A stretch of DNA of 64,000 bases from Deferribacter autotrophicus (GTDB lineage: Bacteria; Chrysiogenota; Deferribacteres; Deferribacterales; Deferribacteraceae): contig NZ_VFJB01000009.1 of assembly GCF_008362905.1 (NCBI RefSeq), positions 186,001 to 250,000 of the forward strand. Direction: 5' to 3'. Below the pieces are notes generated by a model. It saw only the letters and a list, made by a program, of their open reading frames with translations, searched no databases and was not told where the DNA came from. Numbering within the stretch: position 1 is the first letter of the stretch; each line of letters starts with the position of its first letter. The translations under genes and the position numbers were made by a program. This document shows positions 1,475 through 21,221 of this stretch, one piece after another.

Positions 1475-1525
1475 CTTTTCGCAAAGATAAATAGAAATCT
1501 TAAGTCGATTTAAAACTTTAACCAA

Positions 1526-1942
1526 TTAGTTTATTTTAAACACCTTATACTCTAACTCTTTACTCTTATACACTTTTTTAAAAAATATAAAATATAAAAC
1601 AATAACTACAACTGTTGCTACTGGTGTCAGTATATTATCATTAGCACTCAGTGATGATGTTATAGCTGCAGTAAATAATGCCAAAAACACAGGAACGATG
1701 TAAATCATAAATATTGAGCTGTAAAAGCTATTCTTTTTCAAACCAACATTTACAGTCTCACCCTCTTTAAGATCTTCTAAACATTTTACCTCAATAAATG
1801 TATAATTATCCCCTGTAGAGCAACAGGACTGATTATCATCACAAGAACCACATGCTGAACTTCTCATTACTTTCAAAACTGCCTTCCCATCAGGCTTAAT
1901 TTTTATAACTCGAGCCTTATGCAAAACATATTTACTGCTCAT
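1526..1942 (-). CDS. RseC/MucC-type membrane protein (SoxR-reducing system RseC family)
   Basis: About 138 residues. The ATG at 1942 is chosen because AGGAGG lies just upstream; a longer in-frame start lacks a site. The N-terminal half has a cysteine cluster (ACGSCDDNQSCC) typical of RseC proteins, followed by two hydrophobic segments that should cross the membrane. Family members modulate sigma-E signalling, or belong to Rnf/Rsx-linked redox modules in anaerobes. Its start overlaps the end of a small upstream gene on the same strand, so the two form a short operon convergent with the response regulator. The specific role here is not determined by context. Confidence 0.8.
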   Translation of the reverse strand: MSSKYVLHKARVIKIKPDGKAVLKVMRSSACGSCDDNQSCCSTGDNYTFIEVKCLEDLKEGETVNVGLKKNSFYSSIFMIYIVPVFLALFTAAITSSLSANDNILTPVATVVVIVLYFIFFKKVYKSKELEYKVFKIN

Positions 1943-2081
1943 AATAACCTCCTTCAATAAAAATGTTGTCATTCTTCTCCTTTGCAACATTTAAAAGCTC
2001 TTTTTCTTTTTTATACAGTTTTAGTTGCATATAACCAATTAGTGTTAAAGTGAATATAGAAAACATCAATATCTTATCCAT
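1932..2081 (-). CDS. Small single-pass membrane protein (49 aa), unknown
   Basis: A short open frame starts at 2081 with GAGGAGG eight bases upstream. Its N-terminus is hydrophobic (ILMFSIFTLTLIGYM), followed by a charged, Lys/Glu-rich tail. It overlaps the start of the RseC-like gene by 11 bases, indicating coupled translation. I recognise no family. A small membrane partner of RseC is possible but is inference. Confidence 0.6.
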   Translation of the reverse strand: MDKILMFSIFTLTLIGYMQLKLYKKEKELLNVAKEKNDNIFIEGGYYEQ

Positions 2082-2227
2082 AAATTCCTCCTCAAATTTC
2101 TTGATTTTTAATTATTCAAAAATCATGCCAATATTAAAATTTCTCTCAAATATTACGAAAAATTTTTAAATTATAAGAAGTAATCAAACCCATCTGAATA
2201 AAACTAATTCAATTCAAAAAAAAGAAT

Positions 2228-2275
2228 TGTATAAAATTCTACAATAAAAATCGATCAACTGTAGAATATTCTACA
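2228..2275. promoter_or_regulatory. Two copies of a 16-bp palindrome (candidate enhancer sites)
   Basis: TGTAGAATATTCTACA at 2260-2275 is a perfect palindrome. TGTATAAAATTCTACA at 2228-2243 matches it at 14 of 16 positions. The centres are 32 bp apart, close to three helical turns, as expected for a dimeric activator binding tandem sites. They lie about 55-100 bp upstream of a sigma-54-like promoter, the usual position for NtrC-family enhancers. The binding protein is inferred, not shown. Confidence 0.6.
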
Positions 2276-2328
2276 TTTATTAATCGTCTCCAACTACAAT
2301 TTATTTATTTATCAAGAAATTAACATTC

Positions 2329-2344
2329 TGGCATCAAAATTGTT
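2329..2344 (+). promoter_or_regulatory. Sigma-54-like (-24/-12) promoter for the ccm operon
   Basis: TGGCATCAAAATTGTT aligns without gaps to the sigma-54 consensus TGGCACGNNNNTTGCW. The -24 GG is kept; the -12 GC is changed to GT and one flanking C is a T. It is 32 bases upstream of the ATG at 2376 and downstream of two palindromic sites. The -12 mismatch makes this a moderate call. Confidence 0.5.
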
Positions 2345-2375
2345 CATAGTTGGGAAAAACATTGGAGGTTTATTT

Positions 2376-3275
2376 ATGAAGACACCAAAAAACCTGTTTA
2401 AGAAATTTTTAATTTTAATTTTTCTATTTATCAGTGCAAGTGCATTTGCAGAAACAATGACAATGAAACAGCTATATTATTCTATATGGCCTGAGTATGA
2501 TAAGCCATCAGTTTTAGTCATCTATTCAGGAAAATTCATCAATGATACCGGCAAACCATTTAATGATGAACTCATTTATTATGCACCAAAAGGCGCAAAA
2601 ATTAATATGTTGTGCGAAACAGAAAACGGTATGCTCTGTCTGAGATATCTTGTAGAAGATATGGGTGATTATATTAAAATTACTTGGAAACCTTCAAGAA
2701 CAATAAATCCTGGAGAAGAATTCCCTGTAATGTTTGAATATTACATCGATTATTTAAACCTTAATAATAGCAATAGGAGCTTTAATCATCTTTTTAGAGC
2801 AGCTTTTCCTATTCAAAATATGACAGTTGAAGTTAAACAGCCTACAGATTCCACCCAATTTGAAATGATACCAAAACCACACTGGAACCAGTTAGATGGA
2901 GATTTTACAAATTACTATCTAAATCTTAAAGATATAAAAGAAAATGAAAAAATATCATTTAAAATAAGTTATGTAAGAAATTCTTCTGAACCTTCAATCA
3001 AAAATATCAAGCAAAGCAATTTAAATGAAACAAGCATTCCTACTGACAAAAAACTTATATTGATAATTATAGTATTTGCCGCCATATTAGGTTTTACTGT
3101 TGCATACATGCTCAAAGGTACTTCTTCCAAACAATCCAAAAACTCACCTAAACAAAAAGAAAATAATAAAAATCATAAACAAAGAGAAAAAGAAAAATTA
3201 AGAAAATTACTGTTAGATGGAAAAATCAGTGAAGAAACATACAAAGAATTACTTAAAGAATTAAACAACAAATAA
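2376..3275 (+). CDS. Membrane-anchored accessory protein of cytochrome c maturation operon
   Basis: 299 residues from the ATG at 2376, preceded by TTGGAGG; the upstream in-frame TTG lacks a site. It has a signal peptide (about 1-24, ending SASAFA), a roughly 180-residue beta-rich outer domain, one transmembrane helix near residues 226-246, then a very basic linker. It ends in a short helical hairpin, GKISEETYKELLKELN, resembling SHOCT tails. No enzyme motif is visible. As first gene of the run leading into ccmF and ccmH, it probably assists heme delivery or apocytochrome handling on the outer face of the membrane. That role is inferred from position only. Confidence 0.7.
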   Translation: MKTPKNLFKKFLILIFLFISASAFAETMTMKQLYYSIWPEYDKPSVLVIYSGKFINDTGKPFNDELIYYAPKGAKINMLCETENGMLCLRYLVEDMGDYIKITWKPSRTINPGEEFPVMFEYYIDYLNLNNSNRSFNHLFRAAFPIQNMTVEVKQPTDSTQFEMIPKPHWNQLDGDFTNYYLNLKDIKENEKISFKISYVRNSSEPSIKNIKQSNLNETSIPTDKKLILIIIVFAAILGFTVAYMLKGTSSKQSKNSPKQKENNKNHKQREKEKLRKLLLDGKISEETYKELLKELNNK

Positions 3276-12360: not shown

Positions 12361-12399
12361 CATGATTTTTCTTGACATTTAAAAATTTTTACATATATT
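12361..12399 (+). promoter_or_regulatory. Sigma-70 promoter of the sulfate assimilation operon, with CATGATTTTT box
   Basis: TTGACA (12372-12377) and TATATT (12394-12399) are separated by 16 bases. The -10 end is only eight bases before the ATG at 12408, so the transcript should begin at or within a base or two of the start codon. One base upstream of the -35 lies CATGATTTTT (12361-12370). The identical ten bases also sit three bases upstream of the -35 of the rrf2 gene at 33.4 kb, suggesting common control. Confidence 0.65.
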
Positions 12400-12407
12400 T
12401 TTTCCAC

Positions 12408-12638
12408 ATGATAGTAGAAAAAAAATACAGATCTATAATTAAAACAATTTCATGGAGATTAACTGGAACAATTGACACAATCATTATATCTTTTCTGATT
12501 ACAGGTAATTTCTCAATGGCTTTTTCTATTGGCTCAATAGAAGTTATTACAAAAATGATATTATATTATTTACACGAAAGAGCATGGAGTAAAATAAACA
12601 TTGGAAGAAAAGTACTTAAAGAAGATTACCAAATTTAG
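12408..12638 (+). CDS. DUF2061 membrane protein linked to sulfur assimilation
   Basis: 76 residues reading KTISWRLTGTIDTIIISFL, the DUF2061 signature, with two hydrophobic segments and a KMILYYLHERAW ending. The ATG at 12408 is chosen because the family starts close to the RSxxKTxSWR motif; no Shine-Dalgarno site is present and the promoter implies a leaderless message. DUF2061 proteins are often next to cysH/cysDN, or fused to them. Their biochemical role is not established. The gene is first in the sulfate operon and is followed 11 bases later by cysH. Confidence 0.8.
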   Translation: MIVEKKYRSIIKTISWRLTGTIDTIIISFLITGNFSMAFSIGSIEVITKMILYYLHERAWSKINIGRKVLKEDYQI

Positions 12639-12649
12639 GAGAACATATT

Positions 12650-13357
12650 ATGCAAGGAATTTATGAAATTATAAAAAAACTAAAGCATGTTCACGATAAC
12701 GAAATATTAAATTTAATAGTAAATAACTATTCAAGTGTTTCAGCTTTCTCAACAAGTTTAGGTCCTGAAGATCAAGTAATAACACATATGTTATCGCAAT
12801 TGGATAAGGATAGAAATATTCATGTTTTTACCCTGGACACCGGAAGATTGTTTGAGGAGACATATAGGTTATTAGATGAAACACAAAAAGCATTGAATAT
12901 AGCTATAAAAGTGTACTTTCCTGATTTTAACCTTCTGGAAGATTTGGTTAATAACCACGGGATAAATCTTTTTTATGAGAGCGAAGAGCTTAGAAAAAAG
13001 TGTTGTTATGTCAGAAAAATTGAGCCGCTGAAGAGAGCTTTTAAAGACAAATTGATATGGATTACTGGACTTAGAAAAGAACAGTCGACTTATAGGAAAC
13101 AAATGGAGTTAATAGAATATGATGAAAATTTTAAAATTATCAAAGTAAATCCTCTTATCAACTGGGATAGAAAACAGATTTGGGATTACATAGTTTCGAA
13201 TAATGTTCCTTTTAATGAACTGCATAAAAAAGGTTTTCTGAGTATAGGTTGTGCACCATGTACAAGATCTGTACATCCAGGTGAAGATGAAAGAGCTGGA
13301 AGATGGTGGTGGGAATTAGAGTCCAAAAAAGAGTGTGGACTACATTTTAAGGAATAA
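12650..13357 (+). CDS. cysH: Adenylyl-sulfate (APS) reductase, [4Fe-4S] type
   Basis: 235 residues of the PAPS/APS reductase family. It has a PP-loop-like N-terminus (AFSTSLGPEDQVI), the cluster cysteines C118-C119 and C201-C204 (CC and GCAPC), the R-motif TRSVHPGEDERAGRWWW and the C-terminal ECGLH catalytic cysteine. Four cluster cysteines mark the APS-reducing form. This agrees with the locus, where CysD/CysN make APS and no APS kinase (CysC) is seen. Reaction: APS plus reduced thioredoxin to sulfite plus AMP. It is the second gene of the sulfate-to-homocysteine operon. Confidence 0.94.
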   Translation: MQGIYEIIKKLKHVHDNEILNLIVNNYSSVSAFSTSLGPEDQVITHMLSQLDKDRNIHVFTLDTGRLFEETYRLLDETQKALNIAIKVYFPDFNLLEDLVNNHGINLFYESEELRKKCCYVRKIEPLKRAFKDKLIWITGLRKEQSTYRKQMELIEYDENFKIIKVNPLINWDRKQIWDYIVSNNVPFNELHKKGFLSIGCAPCTRSVHPGEDERAGRWWWELESKKECGLHFKE

Positions 13358-13400: not shown

Positions 13401-13613
13401 ATGAAATTAAAAGTGAATGGTGAAGAAGTAATTGTTAAAGAGGAAAAACTAACGGTTGCAGAATTATTGAAAATAAAGAAAGTGGAAGATCCTGATACAG
13501 TTGTAGTTCAACTTAATGGCGAATTCTTAGATAAAAGCAAATATAATAATACCTTACTTAAAGAAAAAGATGAAGTTGATTTCCTGTATTTTGTCGGTGG
13601 GGGGTTGATTTGA
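13401..13613 (+). CDS. hcyS: Sulfur carrier protein HcyS (ThiS/MoaD fold) with C-terminal extension
   Basis: 70 residues from the ATG at 13401, behind TTGGAGG. It is a ubiquitin-like beta-grasp protein (VAELLKIKKVEDPDTVVVQL, then EVDFLYFVGGGLI at the end). Carriers of this family must end in Gly-Gly to be adenylated; here two residues (Leu-Ile) follow the glycines, so a protease must trim it. The JAMM protease three genes downstream is the obvious candidate. In Wolinella succinogenes the equivalent HcyS-Ala is trimmed by HcyD, activated by HcyF and used as thiocarboxylate by MetY. The same set of genes here supports that assignment. Its stop overlaps the TTG start of metY. Confidence 0.88.
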   Translation: MKLKVNGEEVIVKEEKLTVAELLKIKKVEDPDTVVVQLNGEFLDKSKYNNTLLKEKDEVDFLYFVGGGLI

Positions 13614-14851
13614 AAGGGGTTACAACCAAAATTCTTCACACAAAATTACCAAAAAATGACCCACATGGTTCTATCCATATGCCTATATATGGTAATGTAT
13701 CTTTTGAATTTGAAACCTCTAAGGAATTAGCAGATGCATTTAATGGAAGGATAAACAAACACATTTATTCGCGTATATCCAATCCGACTGTAAGCTATTT
13801 CGAAAAAAGGATTAAAAGTATTACTGATGGGTTAGGTGTTTTAGCATTATCTTCAGGTATGGGAGCAATAGCAAATGTTATTTTAACACTTGTTGGAGCT
13901 GGTGATAATATAGTTTGTACAAAATACGTATTTGGCAATACATATTCATTGCTCAAATACACATTAAGCAAATACAATATTGAAACCAGATTTGTTGATC
14001 CACAAAATTATAAAGAAATTGAAGAGGCAATTGATGCTAAAACCAGATTGATTTTCTTAGAATCTATAACAAATCCACAACTTTATGTAACTGATTTCGA
14101 ACGAGTTGCGAAGATAGCTAAAAATTATAAAGTATTGTTAGTTGCTGATACAACTGCAACTCCACCTCCAATTTTTAGAGCAAAAGATTTTGGTATAGAT
14201 ATAGAAGTTATTTCTTCTACAAAATTTATATCTGGTGGGGCTACATCTGTTGGCGGTTTAATAATCGACTATGGCTCATATAAGTGGAGTAATAATCCTT
14301 ACTTATATGATGACTACAAAAAATTTGGCCCATATGCTTTTATATCAAAATTAAGAAATGAAGTGTTTAGAAATATCGGTGCTTGTTTATCACCTTATAA
14401 TGCTTATCTGCAAAGTTTAGGATTAGAAACAATTCAGCTTAGAGTTGAAAAAGCATGTAAAAATGCATTGGTTGTTGCAGAGTATTTGAATGGTATATCT
14501 AAAGTTAAAAATGTTAGATATCCAAGATTGAAAAACTATCCTGATTACACTCTAGCTAAAAAGTTTTTTCCAGATTATCAAGGTGCAATTCTGACCTTTG
14601 AATTATCGTCAGAAAAAGAATGTTTTGAGTTCATGGACAATTTGAAGATTATTAAAAAATCTACAAATATTCACGATAACAGGACGTTAATAATACATCC
14701 TGCATCAACAATATTCTGTGAATACCCGAAAAAGGAAAGAGAGCGTCTTGGTGTAACTGATTCAATGATTAGGCTTTCTGTGGGGATAGAAGATGTAGAG
14801 GATATATTAGAAGATTTAGATAATGCTTTAAAGGGTATTGGAGGTGATTAA
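13610..14851 (+). CDS. metY: O-acetylhomoserine sulfhydrylase-type PLP enzyme, thiocarboxylate-dependent
   Basis: 413 residues from a TTG at 13610 overlapping the hcyS stop. It is a Cys/Met-metabolism PLP enzyme with SSGMGAIANV near residue 80, the Schiff-base lysine in SSTKFISGG (about residue 205) and the C-terminal IHPAST/RLSVGIEDVEDI block. MetY adds sulfur to O-acetylhomoserine to give homocysteine. In this cluster the sulfur donor is expected to be HcyS thiocarboxylate, giving an HcyS-homocysteine adduct cleaved by HcyD. A second metY at 33.9 kb is a pseudogene, so this copy probably carries the function in this window. Confidence 0.92.
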   Translation: MKGVTTKILHTKLPKNDPHGSIHMPIYGNVSFEFETSKELADAFNGRINKHIYSRISNPTVSYFEKRIKSITDGLGVLALSSGMGAIANVILTLVGAGDNIVCTKYVFGNTYSLLKYTLSKYNIETRFVDPQNYKEIEEAIDAKTRLIFLESITNPQLYVTDFERVAKIAKNYKVLLVADTTATPPPIFRAKDFGIDIEVISSTKFISGGATSVGGLIIDYGSYKWSNNPYLYDDYKKFGPYAFISKLRNEVFRNIGACLSPYNAYLQSLGLETIQLRVEKACKNALVVAEYLNGISKVKNVRYPRLKNYPDYTLAKKFFPDYQGAILTFELSSEKECFEFMDNLKIIKKSTNIHDNRTLIIHPASTIFCEYPKKERERLGVTDSMIRLSVGIEDVEDILEDLDNALKGIGGD

Positions 14852-15658
14852 ATGTTTAGTGAAAAAGATATAGAAAGATACAGTAGACATATAATTTTAC
14901 AGGAAATTGGCGTAGAAGGCCAAATGAAGATATGTAATGCAAAAGTTTTAATAATTGGTGCAGGTGGTTTAGGCTCACCCGTAGCACTCTATTTAGCTGC
15001 TGCAGGGGTAGGGACAATAGGAATAGCAGATATGGATAATGTTGATTTGTCCAACCTGCAAAGACAGGTAATCCATTTTACCGATGATATTGGTAAACCA
15101 AAAGTCCAATCGGCAGCTGAAAAAATTAAAAAGCTAAATCCAAATGTCAAAGTTGAGACTTATAATGAAAAAATTACCTCTGAAAATATACTTGATTTGG
15201 TTTCGAAATATGACTTTGTGGTTGATGGGACAGATAACTTTGCTTCAAAGTTTTTGATAAATGATGCGTGTGTATTTGCGAAAAAGCCATTTTCTCATGG
15301 AGGCATTTTAAGATTTATCGGTCAATCTATGACGATCATTCCTGGAGAGACTGCATGCTATAGATGCGTATTTAAATCTCCACCACCTCCTGGATCGGTA
15401 CCAACATGTGCTTCAGCTGGAATTTTGGGCGCCATAGCTGGTATGTTGGGGACAATCCAGGCGGCTGAGGTGCTGAAATACATTACAGGAGTTGGTTACT
15501 TGTTGACAAATAGGATTTTATATTTTGATGCAAAACTAATGGAATTTAGAAATATTGAAGTTAAAAAGAATGATAAATGCCCAATATGCGGAACAAATCC
15601 TGTAATACGCGAATTAAAGGATGAAGAAGAAATTGTTTGTGAGCTAAAAGTAAATTAG
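14852..15658 (+). CDS. hcyF: HcyF, ThiF/MoeB-type E1-like activating enzyme
   Basis: 268 residues. It starts with RYSRHIILQEIGVEGQ, followed by the ATP-binding loop GAGGLGSP (about 37-44) and the DVDNVDLSNLQRQ-type arginine/aspartate motif (here MDNVDLSNLQRQV). Two CXXC pairs (CYRC and CPIC) bind structural zinc, and PTCASAGILG holds the usual active-site cysteine. It adenylates the C-terminal glycine of the trimmed carrier so that sulfide can form the thiocarboxylate. It follows metY with no gap. ThiF or MoeB is the alternative name by sequence; the neighbours favour HcyF. Confidence 0.9.
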   Translation: MFSEKDIERYSRHIILQEIGVEGQMKICNAKVLIIGAGGLGSPVALYLAAAGVGTIGIADMDNVDLSNLQRQVIHFTDDIGKPKVQSAAEKIKKLNPNVKVETYNEKITSENILDLVSKYDFVVDGTDNFASKFLINDACVFAKKPFSHGGILRFIGQSMTIIPGETACYRCVFKSPPPPGSVPTCASAGILGAIAGMLGTIQAAEVLKYITGVGYLLTNRILYFDAKLMEFRNIEVKKNDKCPICGTNPVIRELKDEEEIVCELKVN

Positions 15659-15675: not shown

Positions 15676-16071
15676 ATGCTAAAAATAAAAAAAGAGATAG
15701 TGGAAGAGTTATTTGAATATGCTATAAGCGGACTGCCAAATGAAGTTTGTGGATATCTTGCTGGGAAAGGTGATGTAATTACAAATTATTATAAAATAAA
15801 AAATGAAGATCAAAGCCCAGAGCATTTTACTTTTAATGTTCAAGAGCAGTTTAACGCATTTAAGGATGCAAGAAACAGAGGGTTAGATATAATAGCCGTA
15901 TATCACTCGCATCCAAGTACTCCTGCAAGGCCTTCAGAAGAAGATATCAGGTTGGCACATGATCCGAATGTTTACTACTTTATTATTTCTTTAATGAATG
16001 GGCAGCGAGATTTGAAGTGTTTTGAGATAAAGGATGGAAAAGTAAAAAAAATAGAATATGAGGTGATATAA
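15676..16071 (+). CDS. hcyD: HcyD, JAMM/Mec-type zinc metalloprotease
   Basis: 131 residues with the complete JAMM motif: E23 (NEVCGYL), then H77-S-H79, S87 and D90 in HSHPSTPARPSEED. These residues bind zinc and activate water. The expected jobs are removal of the Leu-Ile tail from HcyS, and later release of homocysteine from its isopeptide-like link to the carrier. The gene lies 17 bases after hcyF, and its stop abuts the sulfite reductase start. Length is typical of the stand-alone prokaryotic Mec+/JAB1 family. Confidence 0.92.
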   Translation: MLKIKKEIVEELFEYAISGLPNEVCGYLAGKGDVITNYYKIKNEDQSPEHFTFNVQEQFNAFKDARNRGLDIIAVYHSHPSTPARPSEEDIRLAHDPNVYYFIISLMNGQRDLKCFEIKDGKVKKIEYEVI

Positions 16072-18399
16072 ATGTTGACATATACTTTACCGTATACAAT
16101 TTATGAAGATTTGGCAAAATATGAAAAAGCAGTAGATGATTTCCTGAAAGGGAGAATTGAGCCAGAAAAATTTAAAGGAATACGTGTTCCTTTTGGTATA
16201 TATGAGCAGAGAAAATCTGGAACATACATGGTAAGAATTAGATTATCAGGAGGGATCATTACTCCAAAACAGCTATATGTAATTGCAGAACTTGCAGACA
16301 AATATGGTTCTGAAAAGTTACATGTTACTACAAGACAAGATATTCAGATTCATGATGTTGTAATAGAAAATACAGTTTATATTTCTAAGGGACTTATTGA
16401 ATGTGGATTATCTTCAAAAGGTGGTGGTGGTAATACAGTTAGAAATATTGTGATGAGTGTTGATGCAGGAATTAACCCTTTGGAACCTTATGATATTACT
16501 CCAGTTGTTGTGGGTCTTACTAATGATTTGTTAAAAGAGGATGATTCATTTAATTTGCCGAGGAAGTTTAAAATAACTTTTTCCAATACTTATGAAGATT
16601 CTGCTTGTGCTACAATTTCTGATGTTGGGTTTATTGCCAGAATAAAAGAAGGTAAAAAAGGGTTTAAAGTTTATGTAGGTGGCGGACTTGGCAGAAAATC
16701 AAGGATAGCTGAACTTTTATATGATTTTATTACGATAAATGAGGTTTATCAGGTAGTAAATGGTGTGAAGTTACTTTTTTATAAATACGGAAATAGGAAG
16801 AATAGACATTCTGCTCGTTTGAGATTTTTATATAACAAACTTGGAAGAGAAGAATTTATAAAACTATTTGAAAGAGAAAAAGAAAAGTTTGAATTAAAGG
16901 ATTATGAAGCATTATATAAGGAAGAAAGAAACTTTTTAAATGATATTATTAATTTAAAACCTGAAGAACCTATAGATGAAGGGTTTGGTGAATGGAAACG
17001 TAATTATGTAAAAGAGCAAAAGCAAAAAGGATTTTATACAATAGAAATACCTTTAAAAAATGGTGATATAAGTACAGAAGATGCTAAAAAGCTGGCCAAA
17101 TTTTTAGAAAATTTTGGTGAAGATGTTATAAGGTTTTCAATAAATCAGAATATTCATTTGCGCAATATAAAAGGTGAATATTTACCCAATGTTTATAATA
17201 TTATCAAACAGCTTGATACAAATTCTGATAATCCACGTATAATTTCTGATATTATTGCATGTAAAGGTGCAGATACATGTCAGCTTGGCATTTGTAAGCC
17301 GAGAGGTGCAGTTTCCAAAATTTATGAATTAATTTCAGAGAATATAGAATTGTTTTCTGCTTTAGGTAGAATTCAGATAAATATTTCTGGTTGTCCAAAT
17401 TCTTGTGGTAAACACCTGATAGGTAACCTCGGATTTTTTGGTAAAGCAAAGCGTAACGATGGATATTTATATCCTGCGTATAATGTGCTTGTTGGTGGCA
17501 AAGTTGAAGATGGTGGTACTAAATTTGGCGAGAAAATTGGAGAAATTAGCGCTAAAAAAATGCCTTACTTTGTTATTGAAGTTTTAAAAGATTTTGCAGA
17601 ATCAGGGTTAGCAAGTTTTCAAGACTATTTAAATAAGTTTGGTGAAAGCCGAATTAGAGAAATTTTGAAAGATTTTGAATATGTTCCTTCATTTGAAGAA
17701 GATAACTCTTTTTATTATGATTGGAATTCTGATGAATTGTTCAATGTGAATGATATTGGACCGGGTGAATGTTCTGCAAGTATGTTTGATTTAGTAGAGT
17801 TGTATTTAGAACAGCTTGTAAAATATAAAAAGAAAGTAAAAGAAATTAATGGTAAAGACAAGTTAGATTTATTGAATGAAATGATTTTTAAGTCAGTTAA
17901 AATGTTACTACTGCTTAAAGGATATGATGCAGAATCTAATGAACAATTGATAAAGCTCTTTGATGAGCATTATTTTAAAACAGGGCTTGTCAGCACAAAA
18001 TATGAAAATATTGTAAGACTGCTTATTGATAATCAGTCTTTAACAACAGAGCGTGAAGATGAGATTTTGGAGTTTGTTGATACAGTGAAACGTTTTTATG
18101 ACGAGCTTGATGAAAGTTTAAATATTGTTACTGGAATTGATGAACCAAAAGAGAAGGATAAGGTGTCAGAACCTGAAATTAAGGTGTTTAAGGATTATCG
18201 AGGTGTATCATGTCCGTTGAATTTTGTGCGTATAAAAGTGGATTTAGCTGGAATGAAAAGCGGTGATTTACTTGAGGTATATCTGGATGATGGTGATCCA
18301 ATAGACAATGTTCCAAGATCCGTTGCTATGGAAGGACATGAGATTATAGAACAAAAGAGAATTGATAATTACTGGTCTGTCGTTATTAGGAAAAAGTAA
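16072..18399 (+). CDS. Sulfite reductase (siroheme, NirA-type) fused to helical and TusA domains
   Basis: 775 residues in three parts. Residues 1 to about 560 form a siroheme/[4Fe-4S] nitrite/sulfite reductase; cluster ligands are C397, C403, C441 and C445 (CKGADTC and GCPNSC), with the substrate-binding THTTRQDIQ-like segment (VTTRQDIQIHDV) near residue 85. Residues about 575-690 are all-helical and HEPN-like. Residues about 705-775 are a TusA-type domain with its cysteine in YRGVSCPLNF and the usual DDGDPI segment. It should reduce sulfite to sulfide. The TusA part suggests the sulfur is held as persulfide and handed on, perhaps to the HcyF-HcyS step; that is inference. The second proline of the TusA CPxP motif is Asn. 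Confidence 0.9.
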   Translation: MLTYTLPYTIYEDLAKYEKAVDDFLKGRIEPEKFKGIRVPFGIYEQRKSGTYMVRIRLSGGIITPKQLYVIAELADKYGSEKLHVTTRQDIQIHDVVIENTVYISKGLIECGLSSKGGGGNTVRNIVMSVDAGINPLEPYDITPVVVGLTNDLLKEDDSFNLPRKFKITFSNTYEDSACATISDVGFIARIKEGKKGFKVYVGGGLGRKSRIAELLYDFITINEVYQVVNGVKLLFYKYGNRKNRHSARLRFLYNKLGREEFIKLFEREKEKFELKDYEALYKEERNFLNDIINLKPEEPIDEGFGEWKRNYVKEQKQKGFYTIEIPLKNGDISTEDAKKLAKFLENFGEDVIRFSINQNIHLRNIKGEYLPNVYNIIKQLDTNSDNPRIISDIIACKGADTCQLGICKPRGAVSKIYELISENIELFSALGRIQINISGCPNSCGKHLIGNLGFFGKAKRNDGYLYPAYNVLVGGKVEDGGTKFGEKIGEISAKKMPYFVIEVLKDFAESGLASFQDYLNKFGESRIREILKDFEYVPSFEEDNSFYYDWNSDELFNVNDIGPGECSASMFDLVELYLEQLVKYKKKVKEINGKDKLDLLNEMIFKSVKMLLLLKGYDAESNEQLIKLFDEHYFKTGLVSTKYENIVRLLIDNQSLTTEREDEILEFVDTVKRFYDELDESLNIVTGIDEPKEKDKVSEPEIKVFKDYRGVSCPLNFVRIKVDLAGMKSGDLLEVYLDDGDPIDNVPRSVAMEGHEIIEQKRIDNYWSVVIRKK

Positions 18400-18545: not shown

Positions 18546-19457
18546 ATGATTACAGAAGAGAAGTTAACGCATTTAAAATTATTAGAATATGAAAGTATTC
18601 ATATCATCCGTGAAGCGGTTGCAGAGGCAGAAAACCCTGTAATGCTCTATTCTATAGGAAAAGATTCGTCAGTAATGTTACATCTGGCTATGAAGGCTTT
18701 TTATCCTGCAAAGCCACCTTTTCCATTGATGCATGTGGATACAACTTGGAAATTTAGAGATATGATAGATTTTAGAGATAAGAGAGCAAAAGAGTTGGGA
18801 TTAGAATTAATAGTGTATGTTAATGAGGAGGGGGTTCAAAGGGGGATTAACCCGTTTATACATGGTAGTAAGGTTCATACTGATATTATGAAAACAGAGG
18901 CTTTGAAAAAGGCTTTAAATAAGTATAAATTTGATGTGATTTTTGGTGGTGCAAGAAGGGATGAAGAAAAATCAAGAGCTAAAGAAAGGATATTTTCTTT
19001 TAGAGATAAAAATCACAGATGGGATCCTAAAAATCAGAGACCAGAACTCTGGAATGTATATAATTTGAAGAAAAATAAAGGGGAAAGCATACGGGTATTT
19101 CCATTGTCAAACTGGACAGAGCTTGATGTGTGGCTTTATATTTATCTTGAAAATATTCCTGTAGTGCCGCTTTATTTTGCAAAAGAGAGACCTGTGGTGG
19201 AGTATGAAGGTGCGCTGATTCTGGTAGATGATGATAGGATGCCAGAAGAATTAAGAAAGAAAGCACAAATGAAATGGGTGAGATTCAGGACATTGGGGTG
19301 TTATCCACTTACTGGGGCAGTAGAATCAAGAGCTACTACTTTGCCTGAAATTATACAAGAGATGCTCCTCACAAAATACTCAGAGCGTCAGGGAAGATTG
19401 ATAGATTTTGACCAGGTGGGGAGTATGGAAAGGAAAAAGATCGAAGGGTATTTTTGA
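18546..19457 (+). CDS. cysD: Sulfate adenylyltransferase subunit 2 (ATP sulfurylase small subunit)
   Basis: 303 residues of the PP-loop CysD family: [18 protein letters not shown] (about 35-52), [15 protein letters not shown], and a C-terminal [15 protein letters not shown] with the [10 protein letters not shown] motif. It works with CysN to form APS from sulfate and ATP, the GTPase driving the unfavourable step. The TGTGAGG site lies five to ten bases before the ATG. Coding sequence is uninterrupted, unlike cysN next to it. Confidence 0.95.
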
Positions 19458-19559: not shown

Positions 19560-21221
19560 ATGAGTGAAGAAAAGTTGATAAAAGATGACATACTTGAGTA
19601 TTTGCATCAACACGAACAAAAGGAGCTTTTACGTTTTATCACCTGCGGTAGTGTTGATGATGGAAAGAGTACGCTTATAGGCCGCCTTCTTTATGAGACT
19701 AAGATGGTTTTTGAAGACCATCTTATGGCTTTGAAGGCAGAAGCTAAGTATAAAAGGACGGAAGACGAAATAGACTTTTCTCTCTTAGTAGATGGTTTGC
19801 AGGCAGAAAGAGAGCAAGGGATAACCATTGATGTAGCCTACAGGTATTTTTCGACAGAAAAGAGGAAATTCATTATTGCAGACACTCCTGGGCATGAACA
19901 ATATACGAGAAATATGGTAACAGGAGCATCAAACGCAGATGTGGCAGTAATTCTTATTGATGCGCGAAATGGTGTATTAACACAAACTAAGAGACACACG
20001 TTTATAGTAACCTTACTTGGTATTAAGCATATAATTGTGGCTATTAACAAAATGGATTTAGTAGGCTACAAGCAGGAAGTCTACGAGAAGATAAAGAGAG
20101 ATTATATTGAGATGATGAGGGGGATTGGGGAGACGATAGGGGAGATTGTTCAAAGTTCAAAGTTCAAGGTTCAAGGTTCTGATAACGTTGAACGTAGAAC
20201 ATTGAACGTTGAACTTACTTTTGTCCCCATTTCCGCTCTCAAAGGTGACAATGTTGTTAAAAAAAGTGAGAACATGTCCTGGTACAATGGCAAAACCTTA
20301 CTTGAATACCTAGATACAGTAGAAGTTCAAAGTTCAAAGTTCAAAGTTCAAAGTGATAAAGGAGTTCAAGGTTCTGATAACGTTAAACGTAGAACATTGA
20401 ACATTGAACAATTTAGATTTCCAGTTCAGTATGTCAATCGTCCGAATTTGGATTACAGGGGATATTGCGGCACAATAGTTTCTGGTAGTATCAAGGTGGA
20501 TGATGAGATCACGGTTTTACCATCTAGAGTAAAAACAAAAGTTAAAGCAATAGTACCACCAGCATATAAAGAAGTTCAAGGTTCAAGGTTCAACGTTCAA
20601 AGTGATAGAGAGGTTCAAAGTTCAAAGTTCAACGTTCAAGGTTCTGATAACGTAGAACATAGAACGTTGAACGTTGAACATACGAGCATAGCTCGTTCTC
20701 CGATGGCTGTTACATTACTCACAGAAGATGAAGTTGATATAAGTCGAGGAGATTTGATTGTAAAATCTAATGAGTTGCCTGAGATGAGTGATACTATTGA
20801 TGTGTTTATTGTGTGGATGGGTGAAGAGCCTTTGGTGGTAGATAAGACTTATGATGTGAAGAGAGCTACTTCTTATGTATCAGGATATGTTGATGAGATA
20901 TATTTTAAAATAAATGTTAATACATTAGAAAAGGAAAAAGACAATAAACTCCAGATGAATGAAATAGCTTATTGTAGGGTAGTGTTAAATACGGAAATTC
21001 CATTTGATAATTACTGGGAAAACAGACATACAGGTGGTATTATATTTATCGATAGAATTACAAATAATACTGTCGGCGCAGGCATGATTATCAAAGCTGC
21101 CTCCTATAAACAAAATACTTTATATAGTGAACCGAATAGAAAAAAATATACTGAATTCGAAATTGAACTAAACAAATTAATAAGAAAATATTTCCCTGAA
21201 TGGAATTGTAAAAAGATATAA
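19560..21221 (+). CDS. cysN: Sulfate adenylyltransferase subunit 1 (GTPase) with three in-frame repeat insertions
   Basis: 553 residues of the CysN GTPase: P-loop GSVDDGKSTL (about 31-40), switch II DTPGHEQY, NKMDLV, then the beta-barrel domains with FPVQYVNRPNLDYRGY and VDISRGDLIV. No APS kinase domain is fused. Three stretches (residues about 197-218, 256-284 and 339-374) are alien VQSSKF/GSDNV/RTLNVE sequence encoded by hairpin repeats. All lie in loops compared with E. coli CysN: before the last G-domain strand, at the G-domain to barrel linker, and in a domain 2 loop. Without them the length is about 465, normal for CysN. The frame stays open through all three, so the protein is probably functional with surface loops added. 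Confidence 0.93.
   Translation: MSEEKLIKDDILEYLHQHEQKELLRFITCGSVDDGKSTLIGRLLYETKMVFEDHLMALKAEAKYKRTEDEIDFSLLVDGLQAEREQGITIDVAYRYFSTEKRKFIIADTPGHEQYTRNMVTGASNADVAVILIDARNGVLTQTKRHTFIVTLLGIKHIIVAINKMDLVGYKQEVYEKIKRDYIEMMRGIGETIGEIVQSSKFKVQGSDNVERRTLNVELTFVPISALKGDNVVKKSENMSWYNGKTLLEYLDTVEVQSSKFKVQSDKGVQGSDNVKRRTLNIEQFRFPVQYVNRPNLDYRGYCGTIVSGSIKVDDEITVLPSRVKTKVKAIVPPAYKEVQGSRFNVQSDREVQSSKFNVQGSDNVEHRTLNVEHTSIARSPMAVTLLTEDEVDISRGDLIVKSNELPEMSDTIDVFIVWMGEEPLVVDKTYDVKRATSYVSGYVDEIYFKINVNTLEKEKDNKLQMNEIAYCRVVLNTEIPFDNYWENRHTGGIIFIDRITNNTVGAGMIIKAASYKQNTLYSEPNRKKYTEFEIELNKLIRKYFPEWNCKKI
20148..20214 (+). repeat. In-frame heptamer hairpin element 1 in cysN (67 bp)
   Basis: The left arm is GTTCAAA/GTTCAAA/GTTCAAG/GTTCAAG/GTTCT. 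The core GATAACGT and the right arm GTAGAAC/ATTGAAC/GTTGAAC follow. The arms pair except at the seventh base of each unit. It is read as V-Q-S-S-K-F-K, then G-S-D-N-V-E-R-R-T-L-N-V-E. In this frame a regular right arm would give TGA, but AGA replaces it, and the left arm has the matching GTTCT instead of GTTCA. Confidence 0.9.
20325..20409 (+). repeat. In-frame heptamer hairpin element 2 in cysN (85 bp)
   Basis: Four GTTCAAA units, a spacer AGTGATAAAGGA, GTTCAAG-GTTCT, the core GATAACGT, then TAAACGTAGAAC, ATTGAAC and ATTGAAC. It is the same family and orientation as element 1, read in the same phase, with AGA at the position that would be TGA. It lies at the junction between the GTPase and the first barrel. 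Confidence 0.9.
20574..20679 (+). repeat. In-frame heptamer hairpin element 3 in cysN (106 bp)
   Basis: Two left-arm blocks of GTTCAAN units are separated by AGTGATAGAGAG, followed by GTTCT, GATAACGT, AGAACATAGAAC, GTTGAAC and GTTGAAC. It is the longest of the three copies. Again AGA occupies the would-be TGA codon. Lengths 67, 85 and 106 are all one more than a multiple of three, which suggests one insertion geometry. Confidence 0.9.

Follow-up and report, generated by a model that had tools for sequence, protein, structure and literature searches.

The window analysed here is a 64,000-nucleotide stretch of the Deferribacter autotrophicus genome (NCBI RefSeq assembly GCF_008362905.1, contig NZ_VFJB01000009.1, positions 186,001 to 250,000 of the forward strand). 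The subject of this work is a gene in it that encodes, in a single chain, a siroheme sulfite reductase, a helical domain with a HEPN fold, and a TusA-type domain. The gene and the parts of its product are the following, by window position:

16072-18399, + strand: sulfite reductase-HEPN-TusA fusion gene, an open frame of 775 residues
16072..17661, + strand: NirA-like siroheme sulfite reductase core, residues 1-530 (Pfam NIR_SIR and NIR_SIR_ferr, two each)
16564..16572, + strand: Lys165-x-Lys167, the sulfite-type lysine pair (from the LPRKFK alignment)
17260..17406, + strand: siroheme/4Fe-4S cysteines 397, 403, 441, and 445, invariant in relatives
17758..17778, + strand: GxGECSA loop, residues 563-569, with Glu566-Cys567 (invariant; predicted local distance difference test, pLDDT, of 62 for residues 561-570)
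17779..18111, + strand: HEPN-fold helical domain, residues 570-680, assigned from the modelled fold
18133..18168, + strand: flexible tether, residues 688-699 (pLDDT <50)
18172..18396, + strand: TusA-type domain, residues 701-775, with a CPxN motif and Cys714 (PF01206, 64.1 bits)

An earlier note on this DNA had described one 775-residue frame with siroheme-cluster cysteines, ending in a TusA-type domain with a conserved cysteine. Both descriptions held: the frame is open and the four cluster cysteines are present, as they are in 73/73 full-length relatives, while the C-terminal domain scored above the PF01206 cut-off and Cys714 is likewise found in 73/73. The Pfam scan of the protein gave NIR_SIR_ferr twice and NIR_SIR twice, then TusA at residues 708-774. 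The AlphaFold model, built with 60 aligned sequences, had a mean pLDDT of 89.6 and a predicted template modelling score (pTM) of 0.83. A chance frame or an artefact was ruled out by this confident model and by about 120 relatives. No sulfite reductase-HEPN-TusA fusion was recognised in the open-licence literature, judged mostly by titles and abstracts.

The relatives were obtained by a scan of genome contigs, which returned 122 tail relatives, of which 80 were kept. The scan patterns contain no cysteine and lie in the tail, so a kept relative necessarily has some of the tail. Among 89 loci, 81 carried the reductase and TusA in one frame, and the removal of eight partial ones left the 73 full-length relatives. 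These include the window itself (L001) and two loci (L039 and L060) taken as copies of L004 and L005, having equal lengths and scores. Under 90% identity 61 of the 73 remained, and 60 entered the alignment (A3), from which L081 was excluded; three loci with broken frames (L058, L077, and L083) were left out of the counts. The 80 kept relatives came from Campylobacterota, Omnitrophota, Bacteroidota, Pseudomonadota, Verrucomicrobiota, Chlorobiota, Spirochaetota, Clostridium, and others. Two relatives from the window's own phylum, L004 and L005, have reductases that branch within the Campylobacterota group, which suggests that this cluster was transferred horizontally.

Of the protein's nine cysteines, six never vary among the 73 relatives. 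Besides the four cluster ligands these are Cys714 of the TusA domain and Cys567, which lies in the loop that follows the reductase core. Glu566 and Cys567 are kept in 73/73 full-length relatives and in 66/66 of the tree set. Along the 170 residues between 531 and 700, D550, E566, and C567 alone are invariant among the 60 aligned rows, and the invariance of C567 and C714 holds at identities down to 28%. The poorest model confidence in this region falls on residues 561-570 and on the tether, and the GxGEC loop and the tether would suit the part of moving arms in the modelled structure.

The TusA domain was matched by PF01206 with an expect value (E) of 1.1e-17, at 64.1 bits against a cut-off of 28.6, and its modelled structure resembles both YeeD (8k1r, Z 12.8) and Escherichia coli TusA (3lvj, Z 12.5). 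The usual TusA motif is CPxP. This motif is absent from the fused domains, which read C714-P715-x-N717 in 73/73 full-length relatives. Since CPxN replaces CPxP, we do not claim orthology to E. coli TusA. The invariance of Cys567, the wide distribution of the fusion, and the CPxN motif all go beyond what the earlier note had described. At two other loci, L123 (8719-9755) and L124 (9795-10828), a CPxN TusA gene adjoins an E1 adenylyltransferase of the HcyF type, with no reductase match and with no HcyD (JAMM protease) found genome-wide; there the TusA protein perhaps supplies sulfur to a different carrier (MoaD, for example).

The modelled core (residues 12-529) superposed on NirA of Mycobacterium tuberculosis (1zj8) with Z 37.4 and a root-mean-square deviation of 2.7 over 475 aligned residues. 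The LPRKFK segment of the fusion aligns with LPRKYK/LPRKFK of NirA and maize sulfite reductase, at the position where plant nitrite reductases have LPRKWN. Lys167 is kept in 73/73 full-length relatives, giving the sulfite-type Lys-x-Lys, not the nitrite-type Lys-x-Asn. An identity as nitrite reductase was ruled out by Lys167 together with the operon content described below. The named NCBIfam equivalogs were all below their cut-offs (PRK09567, 240.5 vs 523; CysI, 122 vs 756.55; sir, 115.2 vs 731.5 bits). The electron donor of the core is presumably ferredoxin. The organism's own genome holds no second NIR_SIR protein and no match to DsrC (PF04358), in a search whose control matched only in E. 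coli; a DsrC-like carrier elsewhere in the genome was ruled out by these zero PF04358 matches. Because no other NIR_SIR protein and no DsrC match were found, the fusion is the genome's sole NIR_SIR-family candidate for assimilatory sulfite reduction.

The gene lies in the following operon:

12372-12638: DUF2061 membrane protein gene, 11 bases upstream of cysH
12650..13357, + strand: CysH of the adenosine phosphosulfate reductase type (TIGR02055, 249.9 bits, cut-off 235.3; CCxxRK and ECGLH)
13401..13613, + strand: HcyS-like ThiS-family carrier ending in GGGLI (PF02597, 48.5 bits; the ATG is codon 5 of the listed frame)
13610..14851, + strand: MetY-like pyridoxal phosphate (PLP) enzyme (PF01053, E 1.6e-107)
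14852..15658, + strand: HcyF-like E1 adenylyltransferase (PF00899, E 4.8e-87; PTCASAG cysteine motif from residue 184)
15676..16071, + strand: HcyD-like JAMM protease (PF14464, E 1.2e-21), with the complete motif HSHPSTPARPSEED
18546..19457, + strand: CysD, ATP sulfurylase subunit (TIGR02039, above cut-off)
19560..21221, + strand: CysN, ATP sulfurylase GTPase subunit with repeat inserts (TIGR02034, above cut-off)

The gene order is DUF2061-cysH-hcyS-metY-hcyF-hcyD-reductase with gaps of 11, 31, -4, 0, 17, and 0 bases, followed by cysD and then cysN at gaps of 146 and 102 bases; the DUF2061 gene may belong to the operon. The CysN frame (553 amino acids) contains three in-frame inserts of GTTCAAA-type heptamer repeats, encoding peptides of the kind SSKFKVQ...TLNVE, and is otherwise a normal ATP sulfurylase subunit.

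One operon, then, holds the gene set of the HcyS pathway: a Gly-Gly carrier with extra residues, an E1, a JAMM protease, MetY, and Sir. The same set (HcyS, HcyF, HcyD, MetY, and Sir) reportedly makes homocysteine via HcyS thiocarboxylate in Wolinella succinogenes, in the account of Krishnamoorthy and Begley 2011. To our knowledge, that account assigns no role to a TusA tail or to Cys567. Operons of this type are covered by class 4e (Table 1) of Iyer, Burroughs and Aravind 2006 (PMC1779556), in which SirA is stated to be always present, with a predicted rhodanese-like role. The class 4e passages name a separate SirA, along with a ThiS-sulfite reductase fusion in two species; unlike the present case, these passages describe no reductase-HEPN-TusA fusion and no GxGEC cysteine (PMC1779556). 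The pathway is known and the enzyme variant is new; the fusion is real and widespread.

From the sequences we have the architecture, the two extra cysteines, the operon, and the disappearance of the tail from a clade in which no sampled genome has HcyD. Our reading, to which we give somewhat better than even chances, is that of an assimilatory sulfite reductase with its own sulfur relay, feeding the HcyS thiocarboxylate. Sulfite would be reduced on the siroheme-4Fe-4S core and, once four electrons have been transferred, the sulfur would most likely be picked up at the S0 level by the protein's own thiols. These would be Cys567, on the putatively mobile loop beside the core, and Cys714, on the tethered TusA domain. 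The Cys714 persulfide would then visit HcyF and give its sulfur, with reduction, to the adenylated C terminus of HcyS, and the resulting HcyS thiocarboxylate would yield homocysteine via MetY and HcyD.

The earlier note had proposed that sulfide made at the siroheme is caught as a persulfide on the TusA cysteine and passed to HcyS. The link with HcyS is consistent with the tail tracking HcyS, HcyF, and HcyD, whereas the chemistry could not be kept as it was: sulfide (S at -2) cannot turn Cys-SH into Cys-SSH without an oxidant, and the scheme is unbalanced because sulfide holds no S0-level sulfur. In an alternative, balanced scheme, sulfide would attack a Cys567-Cys714 disulfide, for which Cys567 is the obvious partner of Cys714. 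We favour the four-electron scheme with S0 capture, Cys714 delivering to the HcyS adenylate, because an S0 product has been reported: a 2026 article gives S0 as the direct product of four assimilatory enzymes, one of them ferredoxin-dependent (PMC13188885), a claim that is recent and comes from one group.

That article also describes DsrC as taking S0 from DsrAB as a persulfide or trisulfide, and states that there is so far no evidence of DsrC in assimilation (PMC13188885). The fusion resembles DsrAB-DsrC in pairing a siroheme reductase with a sulfur carrier (a role here proposed for the TusA domain), and differs in being assimilatory, in forming a single chain, and in having a carrier of TusA fold rather than DsrC. 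A more far-reaching possibility, which we put forward tentatively, is that the protein is a single-chain assimilatory counterpart of DsrAB-DsrC, in which reduction stops at S0, Cys567 and Cys714 catch it as a persulfide or trisulfide and pass it to E1-activated carriers, and sulfur from sulfate gets into homocysteine or cysteine with no free-sulfide stage on the way.

The neighbourhood is largely shared by the relatives. One of them has a fused reductase of 764 residues adjoining a carrier that ends in GGGA, an E1, a JAMM protein, CysN, CysD, and CysH. Where 3 kb or more of upstream sequence was available (55 fused loci), an E1 was near in 51, a JAMM protein in 45, and an HcyS-like carrier in 43. 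At L013 (5772-7205), a single 478-codon frame covers both an HcyS-like carrier and MetY, which may thus be fused.

A second setting, of the cysteine type, is seen in six Mariprofundus-type loci (L084-L089). These have no HcyS-like gene; another carrier of the ThiS family, CysO-like and ending in AIAGG plus one or two residues, stands there with an E1 and the fusion, and directly upstream are genes for a CysM-like enzyme and a threonine synthase-like protein. In the CysO/CysM/Mec+ pathway of M. tuberculosis, cysteine is made by a PLP enzyme that uses a carrier thiocarboxylate. The Mariprofundus-type loci share its CysO-like and CysM-like genes, with the difference that here the sulfite reductase itself bears a TusA relay. 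Because these loci use CysO-like and CysM-like genes, what accompanies the fusion in both settings is an E1 and a ubiquitin-like carrier, irrespective of the amino acid produced. The operon of L087 goes on with a frame showing radical SAM-like and sulfate-symporter matches.

As for the domain between the two cysteines, the earlier note had seen a HEPN-like helical stretch, and it was the fold that bore this out. Modelled alone (pLDDT 85.7), the domain matched 2hsb with Z 11.1 and a root-mean-square deviation of 2.9 over 109 aligned residues, and HepT with Z 9.7. In rows 1-27 of the structure matches, HEPN domains and related helical domains of nucleotidyltransferases predominated, and the leading rows outside this group had Z of about 7 or less; a HEPN protein was matched also within the full-length model. 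By sequence, PF05168 gave no significant match (E 0.059-0.094, in 1/53 members), and the assignment by sequence alone was dropped. HEPN ribonucleases carry the motif R-x4-6-H. The motif is absent from this protein and 6/53 relatives match the pattern at scattered positions; a ribonuclease role was ruled out for want of the motif. In the Omnitrophota relative L081, the helical domain is cleanly missing in frame while both cysteines are kept, their motif starts standing 19 residues apart. The helical domain thus looks dispensable from the sequence comparison. L081, a single metagenome-assembled genome in which an assembly fault is possible, speaks against the earlier suggestion that the domain docks HcyF or the electron donor, insofar as such a dock would be essential.

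The presence of the tail was then compared with that of HcyD. Of 50 genomes from the window's phylum, four have the full fusion and the same four have HcyD, and the other seven genomes with a match have no HcyD. A draw of 249 Campylobacterota genomes gave 97 with a match, and HcyD was searched in 49 of these, comprising all 17 with the fused form, all six with a truncated form, 24 with a plain reductase, and two with TusA alone. HcyD was present with the fusion in 16/17, with the truncated form in 0/6, with the plain form in 1/24 (a weak match, E 1.4e-10), and with TusA alone in 0/2. The truncated reductases stop immediately short of Cys567 or at its place (...GIGEEN). In the core tree, obtained by a quick search with no bootstrap, they group as a single clade that is nested in the fused Campylobacterota and neighbours G309, a genome with the fusion and no HcyD. 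The simplest history would be that the HcyS machinery was lost first and the tail second, with the reductase kept, and on this pattern the tail probably serves E1-activated carriers and not sulfite reduction itself.

In the truncated relatives every siroheme residue checked is retained, and the core is therefore probably functional when the tail is missing. This agrees with a model in which released sulfide attacks the HcyS adenylate, while the tail docks near HcyF, giving a high local sulfide concentration, or regulates; this is reportedly the published Wolinella account. A plain dock needs no redox-competent cysteine, yet C714 and C567 are invariant in 73/73, and the helical domain, which would be the better dock, is missing in L081 where both cysteines stay. 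We regard this model as unlikely.

A general relay is a still less probable explanation of the tail. The TusA domain would receive sulfur from a cysteine desulfurase or thiosulfate and serve several carriers, MoaD included, its fusion to the reductase being a convenience. The own genome has two E1s (one close HcyF-type, one at 35% identity) and four ThiS-family carriers, so that the E1 is possibly shared, and in two genomes TusA adjoins an E1 with no reductase match. However, in the sampled genomes the tail accompanies HcyD and has disappeared where HcyD is missing, and the GxGEC cysteine beside the core would be left without a role. A role for that cysteine is offered by a model in which Cys567 is an acyl acceptor: HcyF would pass HcyS to it as a thioester or acyl disulfide, in the manner of an E2, and siroheme sulfide would release the thiocarboxylate. 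The invariant Glu566-Cys567 beside the core fits this idea, as do the JAMM protease and E1 of the operon; the domain searches of the protein gave no E2 match, and the model gives Cys714 no role. It is the most improbable of the explanations weighed here.

Several points weigh against the relay that we favour. In the Wolinella account, free bisulfide from Sir is said to be the nucleophile on the HcyS adenylate. Low model confidence is weak support for mobility of the loop. A Foldseek search with the helical domain returned nothing at E <=0.001 (2hsb, E 0.11). Two genomes with the fusion, those of G309 and L074, gave no HcyD, and at G309 no E1 was found beside the fusion. The co-occurrence of tail and HcyD could reflect operon inheritance rather than mechanism. 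At five of the six truncated loci there is little or no upstream sequence, owing to contig ends, so that the evidence for a lack of HcyD comes from the whole-genome search, with genome completeness not given. The plain reductases L006-L009 fall inside the fused group, with weak support and on a long branch, representing either a further loss or a sister origin. Asn stands at position 167 in 5/18 plain rows of the tree, and for this reason some plain forms are nitrite reductases. Lastly, at L003 (G017; 1513-3213, - strand) the reductase ends near residue 564, with both cysteines deleted and the core intact. Beyond this point the end of TusA is encoded out of frame, an N gap lies upstream, and the genus code is the same as that of L002; L003 was not counted as a loss because the out-of-frame join and the N gap may reflect an assembly fault.

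What is new here is the invariant cysteine pair, the joint loss of tail and HcyD, a HEPN domain that looks dispensable, and the second setting of cysteine type. A recent dispute concerns the product of assimilatory sulfite reductases, which either set sulfide free or pass S0 on (PMC13188885). In this family the question is directly testable, with two mutable cysteines and with tail-less and HEPN-less relatives as natural controls. If the proposed relay is true, the family would be that of a reductase with a built-in carrier, wired to a protein-thiocarboxylate pathway.
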